DNA of 64,000 nt from positions 189,314-253,313 of the forward strand of contig NZ_SCHN01000008.1 of assembly GCF_004120195.1 (NCBI RefSeq). The letters run 5' to 3'. A program made the translations under genes and the position numbers. The DNA comes from Enterovibrio baiacu (GTDB taxonomy: Bacteria; Pseudomonadota; Gammaproteobacteria; Enterobacterales; Vibrionaceae). This document shows positions 48,851-50,965 of this stretch, piece by piece (positions within the stretch are counted from its first letter, which is position 1; each line of letters begins with the position of its first letter). The notes under the pieces were generated by a model. The model made no database searches and was not told the DNA's origin. It saw only the letters and a list, made by a program, of their open reading frames with translations.

Positions 48851-50269
48851 TTACCAAACATCTTTATCAATTTGTTTGTCGAGCTGAGGGAACTGCTTAC
48901 GATCGAACGTCGGTGTTTTACCTTCTTTGCGTTGTGCTTCGTAGTCCTTCAGTAGAGCAATGACCACGCCAGACAGCGCCAGCACCGCAACCAAGTTGAC
49001 GATAGCCATCATGCCCATCGACAAGTCAGCAAGCGCCCATACTGTTGGTAGGTCAATCACAGCACCGACAACGACCATTGCTAACACCGCCACGCGATAA
49101 ATATTGATCGCGAGTTTGCTTTTGAAAATGTATTCGATGTTTGATTCGCCGTACGAGTAGTTAGCAATCAAAGAGGTGAATGCAAACAGCAAGATAGCAA
49201 TAGCAATGAACTGTGCACCCCAATCACCCACTTCTGTGACGAGTGCAGCCTGCGTCAAGGCAATACCAGTGAGGTCGCTGGTGGTATCAAGCATGCCAGA
49301 AAGCAAGATAATGGAAGCGGTTGCTGTACAAATTACGATGGTATCAATGAAGACACCTAGCATTTGCACATAACCTTGTGCGACAGGGTGGTTAGGACGC
49401 GTTGTGGCTGTTGCAGCAGCGTTTGGCGCAGAACCCATACCCGCTTCGTTTGAGAACAAACCACGTTTGATACCCTGCATCATTGCTGCACCCAGTGCAC
49501 CGCCTGCGGCTTGTTCAAAGCCCAATGCGCTCTTAATGATGGTGGCAAAGATCTCAGGAAGTACAGTGATGTTGATGGCGATAACGTAGAGCGCAACAAT
49601 CAGGTAACCGATTGCCATGAAAGGCACAATAAGTTCAGCCACACGGGAGACAGAACGCATACCACCGAAAATGATCGGTGCAACAGCGACGGCAAGGATG
49701 ATGCCGACCCAGGTGTTGTCGGTGCCAAATGCGGTATTCATTGCTGCAGCAATGGAGTTTGATTGAACGCCGTTAAATGCAAGACCGAAGGCAATGATCA
49801 GGCAGATAGCAAACAAGATGCCCATCCAGCGCTGGCCTAAGCCTTTTTCCATGTAGTAAGCAGGGCCACCACGGAAGGTATTGTCGTCGTGATTTACTTT
49901 GTAAGCTTGAGCGAGGGTTGATTCTGCGAAGCTGGTAGACATACCCACAAGGGCTGTAATCCACATCCAGAATACTGCACCAGGACCGCCTAAGTAAATG
50001 GCAACGGCTACGCCGGCCATGTTACCTGTTCCTACGCGCGCTGCGAGGCTTGTACTGAATGCTTGGAAAGAGGAAATACCACCATCAGCGCCGTCGCGGC
50101 TGCCTTTGATGAGGGAAATCATGTGCCCGAATGAACGAAATTGTAGGAAACCAGTGCGAATGGTGAAATATAAACCCGCGCCGATCAAAAGGTAGATGAG
50201 CACACTTCCCCACAATAAACCATTTCCGGCATCGATAAAGGAAACGAATAGTTCTTTTAGTTCCGTCAT
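48851..50269 (-). CDS. Sodium:alanine (or glycine) symporter, AgcS/AlsT family
   Basis: An inner-membrane secondary transporter of 472 residues with about 10 to 11 helices. The family signature GTGNMAGVAVAIYLGGPGAVFW lies near residue 75 (given here in part: GTGNMAGVAVAI) and NEAGMGSAPNAAA near residue 260. ATG 50269 is chosen; the frame extends to TTG 50290. In V. cholerae the homologue VC1422 is under a tandem glycine riboswitch; the leader here is long and folded but does not match that motif by eye. Confidence 0.93.
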   Translation of the reverse strand: MTELKELFVSFIDAGNGLLWGSVLIYLLIGAGLYFTIRTGFLQFRSFGHMISLIKGSRDGADGGISSFQAFSTSLAARVGTGNMAGVAVAIYLGGPGAVFWMWITALVGMSTSFAESTLAQAYKVNHDDNTFRGGPAYYMEKGLGQRWMGILFAICLIIAFGLAFNGVQSNSIAAAMNTAFGTDNTWVGIILAVAVAPIIFGGMRSVSRVAELIVPFMAIGYLIVALYVIAINITVLPEIFATIIKSALGFEQAAGGALGAAMMQGIKRGLFSNEAGMGSAPNAAATATTRPNHPVAQGYVQMLGVFIDTIVICTATASIILLSGMLDTTSDLTGIALTQAALVTEVGDWGAQFIAIAILLFAFTSLIANYSYGESNIEYIFKSKLAINIYRVAVLAMVVVGAVIDLPTVWALADLSMGMMAIVNLVAVLALSGVVIALLKDYEAQRKEGKTPTFDRKQFPQLDKQIDKDVW

Positions 50270-50806
50270 AACAAACTCTACTGTCGTCAAAAAAGGAAAG
50301 GCAGCGGAGTGAACAAGGAGGAAACAAACGCTCTGAAACTTCCTTATCAGCTCTTAGCCTCGGGCAATGGTTGCCCTGGCGACGCTTCCTTGCAGAGATT
50401 CATGGCCAGTATTCGTGCGCAGCGAGCCTGCCGCGCTATCTTCAATTCCATTTGAGTATGTATCCTACGGCCAGTTCTATTGCGGCTTACAGGTGTACGC
50501 TACAATAAAACGGCGCGATAATACTTCAATTTGAGATGTTGAGCATCCTAAAATTTCGCCATTCGTTTAAAAATGCGTCAGATAAATTAATAAAAAGATA
50601 ATTATCCAACATAAACACCAATAATCGTTAACATATTGGCCAAATCTATTTTCAGAATACTTACTTTACTGGCGTTATATTAGAGGCCTTTTTATCCAGT
50701 CCCTCAGGCATATGCCGTGTTGAAAATGTGTTGGTCTAATTAGCCTTGAATGGAGAGATAATCGTGAGAGGGGAACGAATGCGGATAGACAGAAGAGTGA
50801 TAAGTC
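50270..50806. other. Noncoding region upstream of the symporter gene
   Basis: About 540 bases. The half next to the symporter gene is GC-rich and folded (see the leader RNA entry). The part 50520-50780 is AT-rich with no recognised gene; it may hold the symporter promoter. Confidence 0.6.
50331..50397 (-). promoter_or_regulatory. Candidate structured leader RNA of the symporter gene
   Basis: On the minus strand CTCUG (50397-50393) can pair with CAGAG (50335-50331). Nested inside are AGC/GCU, GCC/GGC and a GGGCAA-CCA-UUGCCC hairpin separated by purine-rich bulges. A further GC-rich hairpin lies upstream near 50415-50435, and a pyrimidine-rich tract lies between this fold and the start codon. 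The layout is aptamer-like. I cannot assign it to a known riboswitch. Confidence 0.4.
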
Positions 50807-50816
50807 TCACTCTTCT
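50791..50816 (-). terminator. Hairpin at the rsmS stop codon
   Basis: A perfect ten-base stem (AGAAGAGTGA / TCACTCTTCT) with a six-base loop; it includes the rsmS stop codon. The T-tract on the minus strand is poor, so it may stabilise the 3' end rather than terminate strongly. Confidence 0.6.
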
Positions 50817-50965
50817 TGGTTCAATTTACGTTCGAAGTCGCTTTGTACTATCGCCAATGCTTTGAGTACGGTCTCTGGTGCTAGATCGTGGCTTTCCAAT
50901 AAGTAGATTAAATCAACGGCTAATTTAATTTCATCAGGAGCATGTTCTAAGCCTGTGTCACTCAT
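50807..50965 (-). CDS. rsmS: RsmS/YbaM family small regulatory protein (DUF2496)
   Basis: A 52-residue protein starting MSDTGLEHAPDEIKLAVDL; the APDEIKLAVDLIYLLE and PETVLKALAIV segments match E. coli YbaM (RsmS in soft-rot bacteria, where it affects secondary metabolism). GGAG lies nine bases before ATG 50965. The ATG lies inside the end of the deacetylase gene (eight-base overlap), which suggests coupled translation. In E. coli ybaM follows priC; here the deacetylase gene is inserted between them. Confidence 0.88.
   Translation of the reverse strand: MSDTGLEHAPDEIKLAVDLIYLLESHDLAPETVLKALAIVQSDFERKLNQEE

Follow-up and report, generated by a model that had tools for sequence, protein, structure and literature searches.

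Sites for CsrA (RsmA) selected in vitro carry a single-stranded GGA in a hexanucleotide loop, closed by a stem of four or fewer pairs, as given in PMC7652899. The same source describes the ymdA and moaA leaders of E. coli, in which, on its account, bound CsrA unfolds a structure masking the ribosome site. In V. cholerae, the processes affected by CsrA include amino acid transport according to PMC7858070, the main text of which mentions neither VC1422 nor alanine; the word 'symporter' is likewise absent from the main text of PMC12889724. RsmS of Pectobacterium is described as a genetic suppressor of rsmB defects, within the RsmA/RsmB pathway (PMC6418279). In the literature searched, as far as its text was accessible, there is no report of CsrA or RsmA acting on an AGCS (alanine symporter) gene or leader.

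The leader described here lies in a 64-kb stretch of DNA (the window, meaning the whole stretch analysed) on contig C28 of G000, a genome of the Enterovibrio/Grimontia type in the Vibrionaceae, and precedes an AGCS-type Na+/alanine (amino acid) symporter gene, referred to as AGCS-A. It is a new structured leader, and most likely a further CsrA-controlled leader, a kind that is already known.

The AGCS-A locus and the limits of its leader

AGCS-A occupies positions 48851..50269 on the minus strand, with its ATG start codon at 50269-50267. In profile searches its product matched PF01235 (E 2e-167) as well as TIGR00835 (agcS), and the N-terminus MTELKELFVSF is kept in orthologues. Orthologues of at least 79% identity were listed for 17 of the 18 genomes of the same genus (that of G005 being partial); outside it, genus g9 contributes six genomes and genus g6 one. 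A disrupted copy was found in G029 of genus g13 (locus L018), with an in-frame stop shortly past the start that reflects either mutation or an assembly error. The remaining AGCS matches in the family are about 60-65% identical to AGCS-A.

Directly upstream of AGCS-A is rsmS (ybaM; 50807..50965, minus strand; NF008266 RsmS equivalog at 86.5 bits, PF10689), and rsmS accompanies AGCS-A in 24 of the 25 distinct loci, which cover four genera; L033 is the exception. This synteny may be read as a suggestive, circumstantial pointer to Csr control. Along the minus strand from 52437 to 50807, the gene order is priC-like, histone-deacetylase-like (PF00850) and rsmS, followed by AGCS-A; 52437-51889 is presumably the priC-like gene. 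The genome encodes CsrA as a 65-aa ORF (PF02599, 89.6 bits), the first 57 residues of which are identical to the V. cholerae CsrA sequence given in PMC12889724. Two CsrB RNAs score above the Rfam cut-off, with 18 and 20 GGA, and a third scores below it. The stronger two (104.9 and 106.8 bits) stand in tandem on one strand at G000:C14:45101-46252, with their GGA in nearly the same order, and the weaker one is at C11:43830-44138.

The original prediction had placed a minus-strand leader upstream of a Na+/alanine symporter gene, and a leader of about 240 nt is indeed found there, bounded by a -10-like box and the ATG of the AGCS gene (PF01235). The comparison set consisted of 15 orthologous leaders of the same genus, aligned from AGTATTAT to ATG; AGTATTAT is present in 14 of them and is replaced by AGTATCAT in L033, and the g9 leaders likewise begin with GTATTATCC. 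Within AGTATTAT, the conserved TATTAT (50518..50523, minus strand) would act as a probable -10 box, and transcription probably starts just past it (50523-50518). No good -35 was seen upstream of this box, and a consensus promoter scan of the window did not list a box at 50518-50523. Further upstream (about 50680-50525, minus strand), conserved blocks ATGTTAA...TGTTG and AAATTT..GATGC suggest regulator sites. A sigma-54 reading of TGGCC..TGC was rejected by eye because the spacing is wrong. At the other end of the leader is a weak ribosome-binding site, GTAGAG (50276..50281, minus strand), with TAGAGTTT in 14 of 15 leaders. An upstream leader peptide was also rejected by eye, since no conserved start codon follows either AAGGA and short ATG frames occur in some leaders only.

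The leader is not in Rfam 15. Comparison with Rfam had been suggested as a check for a known class, and no family reaches its gathering score at the window leader or at 19 related loci, the sole gathering-level match in the window being a tRNA. At E<=10 only two models match the leader, a thermometer at 9.7 bits (cut-off 290) and a nematode snoRNA at 13.9 bits (cut-off 45). The glycine riboswitch class, already noted as not seen here, was rejected for this leader in the Rfam scan: RF00504 gives no match, though it does elsewhere in the genome. The genome has five AGCS-family genes, and a tandem glycine riboswitch (G000:C17:101296-101511, minus strand) lies just upstream of one of them (C17:99870-101060, minus strand). 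Because this riboswitch precedes a different AGCS gene, the comparison that had been made with the V. cholerae homologue concerns the other paralogue.

Conserved fold and competing pairings

Sequence comparison indicates that the leader is real and structured, because of its conservation and covariation rather than its predicted stability. The predicted fold energy of the window leader lies within chance expectation (z -1.40, with 15 of 200 shuffles equally stable), and for the 3' half of the leader z is -0.69. Covariation among related leaders had been proposed as a further check and was found, as compensatory changes in the helices P0 and P2 across the 15 leaders.

The P0 domain (50403..50473, minus strand) is a helix of 50473-50465 with 50411-50403 around hairpin H1 and a variable GC hairpin (50436-50417, minus strand), the GC hairpin that had been predicted. 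In the alignment of this 5' domain (A3), 88.8% of P0 cells are paired and four pairs have both sides changed. There are 13 double-change cells, compared with 4.8 +/- 1.8 in shuffles (0/500 as high), and the number of double-changed pairs is ordinary (145/500 shuffles as high). A 5' hairpin GCCG..TTT, tried as an alternative to P0, was rejected because its covariation is no better than in shuffles (164/500).

In the 3' domain (alignment A2; hairpins H2, P2 and P3), 96.2% of 419 cells are paired, against 38-53% in slid controls. Six pairs are double-changed versus 3.0 in shuffles (2/500 as high), and double-change cells number 19 versus 5.9 (0/500), these pair-count shuffles ignoring the relatedness of the leaders. 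Most of the double changes fall in P2, a variable hairpin GGGCA...TGCCC (50362..50376, minus strand) in which four of six pairs have both sides changed; the other two are in P3, each in one sequence.

P3 (50300..50359, minus strand) is a long hairpin in which AAGGA (50345-50341) is paired to TCCTT (50319-50315). Its four helices have 93-100% of cells paired, and by itself it is the MFE hairpin in all 15 leaders (-11.4 to -22.0 kcal/mol). The proposal that the pyrimidine tract CCTCCTT (50321-50315) could pair with AAGGA holds well, the five pairs of this contact being standard in 14, 15, 15, 15 and 14 of 15 leaders. The same cannot be said of the proposed CTCUG/CAGAG stem (50397-50393 with 50335-50331), which is not a conserved helix because its 3' strand CAGAG occurs in only three of 15 leaders. 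The base of the P3 stem immediately precedes a T-rich tract (50289..50299, minus strand) that, judged by T counts, resembles a terminator in some members of the genus: 10 leaders have 8-10 T among the 11 positions, and the remaining five have 4-7. A terminator scan did not list P3, because its loop limit of 8 excludes this hairpin. In L032, which also lacks ANGGA at sites 1 and 3 (see below), a palindromic insertion of about 45 nt lies between P3 and the ribosome site, directly ahead of the latter.

Several of these pairings compete. An alternative 3' fold, with P2 extended and hairpin H3 formed, has a similar score (95.3%). The GCC/GGC extension of P2 competes with P3 for the same GGC, and H3 and P3 are mutually exclusive, AAGGA 50345-50341 being common to both. 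Additionally, CTCTGC (50392..50397, minus strand), the complement of GTAGAG 50281-50276, is a possible anti-ribosome-site strand; its pairing with the ribosome site and H2 exclude each other because they share bases. The RNAalifold consensus pairs CTCTGC with the start region, with a probability of at least 0.8 in only two of 15 leaders (L023 and L008). Four of the six g9 leaders show pairing, with a probability of 0.31-0.56, between a CUCUG near -226 and the CAGAG ribosome site. Pairing of CTCTGC with the GCAGAG at the start of P3 was rejected, as by eye it is not kept in L020, L025, L008 and L033.

ANGGA hairpins within and beyond the genus

The AAGGA-rich segments that had been described as purine-rich bulges are present, and are better read as three ANGGA motifs than as bulges. 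The first is in H1, CAA[ATGGAA]TTG (50443..50454, minus strand), as candidate CsrA site 1 (ATGGA 50451-50447); 14 of the 15 leaders keep ANGGA there, with T, C or A as N, and L032 has lost it. Candidate site 2 (AAGGA 50391-50387) is in H2, TGC[AAGGAA]GCG (50383..50395, minus strand), where ANGGA is kept in 15/15 leaders (N = A, C or T) and the 3-bp stem has 97.8% of cells paired. Candidate site 3 (AAGGA 50345-50341) is in the short hairpin H3, CTGA..AAGGAAG..TTTCAG (50333..50350, minus strand; 93.2% of cells paired), and reads AAGGA in 13 of 15 leaders, CAGGA in L033 and AAGGT in L032. Folded alone, H1 is not predicted to form in four of 15 leaders (L027, L028, L030 and L031), in several others the MFE fold does not have its exact hexaloop, and H2 takes another fold in the ACGGA leaders. 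No candidate site covers the Shine-Dalgarno sequence or the start codon; the start region holds GTAGAG without ANGGA, and the ANGGA closest to the ATG is that of L020, about 75 nt upstream.

Three ANGGA sites conserved in at least 13 of 15 leaders were not reached in any of 5000 column permutations (mean 0.046). Among 256 XNYZW patterns, ANGGA ranks first and is alone in having three conserved places; in a thinned set of 10 leaders, 57-91% identical, it is still first at 8/10 and 9/10 and partly tied at 10/10. Hairpins were counted by a rule (loop up to 9, stem of 3 or more, G-T allowed) that was fixed before the counts, yet after the motif had been noticed. By this rule, 13 of 15 leaders have three or four hairpin ANGGA (p 0.000-0.008 versus dinucleotide shuffles), the exceptions being L033 with two (p 0.02) and L032 with none, where the single ANGGA retained is in no hairpin of the counted kind. 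For comparison, 0.34% of 12,699 segments of 246 nt from both strands of the 64-kb window reach three and none reaches four, and among 18 other AGCS leaders (13 Vibrionaceae paralogues and five from other genera) 13 have no hairpin ANGGA and five have one. Two or more conserved ANGGA in small hairpin loops, taken here as the mark of a CsrA leader, are found in this leader; the exceptions to a count of three or more are L032-L036.

The fold itself is narrowly distributed. R1, a covariance model built on the 3' domain and searched with stricter filters under which weak matches may be lost, matched 15 of the 296 genomes searched in the family. These 15 are all among the 18 of the same genus, with a single match each, at the AGCS-A leader. 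R1 was found in one of 295 order genomes, the genome studied here; the two sets overlap and make up 591 genome places in total. Misses within the genus are G012, which has no AGCS-A match, and G002 and G014, which have differing leaders (L035 and L036). With filters off and E<=5, R1 found nothing above 8.5 bits in L018 and L034-L042, the matches of about 8 bits being at chance level. Between the g9 leaders and those of the genus blastn gives no match at E<=0.01, and R1 does not find the g9 leaders at E<=5; blastn against L035 and L036 aligned only the 25-29 nt adjoining the start codon. A 19-bit R1 match on the opposite strand of L020 was taken as an echo of the near-palindromic P3.

The AGCS-A leaders of g9 nevertheless carry three or four ANGGA hairpins in 6/6 cases (p <=0.002), three of them conserved in 6/6. 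ANGGA is again first of 256 patterns by total, with a permutation P of 0.0002 on three divergent members. Other sister leaders have three (L018, p 0.02), two (L035 and L036, p 0.06 and 0.04) or one (L034, p 0.33). As far as these alignments tell, what is common to the genera is three ANGGA hairpins and not an aptamer core, and most sister leaders keep GGA hairpins alone.

Readings of the leader and known systems

The AGCS-A symporter is, on balance, probably controlled by CsrA (RsmA) through its structured 5' leader. Because of the three probable CsrA sites, the transporter is probably tuned by the Csr system and not by a new metabolite sensor. Of the original prediction, the structured regulatory leader stands and is found conserved; a new aptamer class is not supported as the best reading, since conservation across genera falls on three ANGGA hairpins and not on an aptamer core. 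In the free RNA, P3 would hide site 3 (AAGGA:TCCTT), and H3 would expose it. CsrA dimers may bridge H1, H2 and H3, and CsrA on H2 and H3 would hold open P3 and the anti-ribosome-site pairing, because H3 and P3 share AAGGA and H2 and the anti-strand share CUCUGC. Titration of CsrA by CsrB-type RNAs would then let P3 form, and expression would fall. Refolding that activates expression, on the pattern of ymdA or moaA, seems somewhat likelier than repression because no ANGGA site touches the ribosome site, and is put forward tentatively as the sign and route of control. The architecture is supported, CsrA is the likely factor, and activation as the sign is a guess. Relative to the free fold, a predicted 6.1-13.5 kcal/mol is needed to open sites 2 and 3, and doing so hardly shifts the mean openness of the start region (0.29-0.49 free versus 0.33-0.58 opened), which goes down in some leaders. 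A further point against the CsrA reading is that the leader holds more conserved sequence than CsrA sites alone require.

A new metabolite- or ion-responsive riboswitch, in which P0, P2, P3 and the purine-rich loops would form the aptamer and P3/H3 or the anti-ribosome-site pairing the platform, is unlikely. The covarying helices, long invariant stretches and mutually exclusive pairings would fit such an RNA, and so would its position: the gene that follows encodes an amino-acid symporter, and a paralogue of that gene elsewhere in the genome is preceded by a glycine riboswitch. However, the fold occurs in one genus only (R1 in 15/296 family and 1/295 order genomes under the stricter filters) and once per genome, before AGCS-A, and it has no Rfam match. 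Bar the chance-level 8-bit matches, R1 is absent from sister-genus AGCS-A leaders even with filters off at E<=5, and these leaders keep the ANGGA hairpins without an alignable core. A dual-input leader, comparable to the proposal for moaA, would combine a ligand-sensing P0-P2-P3 fold specific to Enterovibrio/Grimontia with loops also bound by CsrA; this is quite unlikely, and if true, paralogous AGCS genes of one cell would be sensed by two RNAs, the glycine riboswitch and the AGCS-A leader. A bold variant related to this reading would have P3 terminate transcription in some members of the genus, the short product of about 210 nt then acting as a CsrA sponge.

It is also quite unlikely that the leader is an attenuator or sRNA target without CsrA, in which P3 and the T-rich tract would terminate transcription, H3 or the GCC/GGC-extended P2 would be the antiterminator, and another factor, or sRNA base-pairing on the pyrimidine tract, would be the switch. 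In favour of attenuation, 10 of 15 leaders have 8-10 T in the 11 nt that come after the GGCAG/CTGCC stem of P3; moreover, GCC/GGC and P3 contend for the same GGC, and TCACCTCCTTA in the pyrimidine tract of L024 and L025 matches the 16S rRNA 3' end. In contrast, the T-tract is weak (4-7 of 11) in five of 15 leaders, the terminator scan, with its loop limit of 8, did not return P3, no antiterminating factor was identified, and the three ANGGA sites would be left unexplained. Conservation due to a promoter, protein-binding DNA or close relatedness, with no RNA function at all, would agree with the unremarkable global fold energy, with leaders that are 57-91% identical in the thinned set, and with shuffles blind to relatedness. 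Yet it is very improbable given the compensatory changes in P0 and P2, the far lower slid controls, and an ANGGA specificity that recurs in two unalignable leader sets.

If control by CsrA is correct, alanine-type uptake of marine Vibrionaceae would be directly under the Csr carbon-storage system, beside a conserved rsmS, and paralogous transporters of one genome would use unrelated RNA controls. The leader also offers defined, mutually exclusive hairpins suited to studying CsrA-driven refolding. The mechanism would be a fresh case of a known kind and not a new class.

Among known systems, the tandem glycine riboswitch (RF00504) of this genome also stands before an AGCS gene, but that gene is a different paralogue and the AGCS-A leader does not match the model. 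The ymdA and moaA leaders of E. coli, as described in PMC7652899, likewise have two or more GGA sites; AGCS-A differs in its three candidate sites 75-185 nt upstream of ATG, its long P3 hairpin and its lack of a strong Shine-Dalgarno sequence, and CsrA binding to it is predicted. The pgaA leader of E. coli, with CsrA-dependent Rho termination in the account of PMC7652899, is similarly long, with several CsrA sites and a hairpin prevented by CsrA, features for which the AGCS-A leader is a candidate; in pgaA, as described there, sites also cover the Shine-Dalgarno sequence and start, whereas none does here. Finally, the CsrB/RsmB sponge RNAs (RF00018) share multiple GGA hairpins with the AGCS-A leader, but CsrB is an independent RNA with 18-20 GGA, whereas AGCS-A has an mRNA leader with three ANGGA sites.
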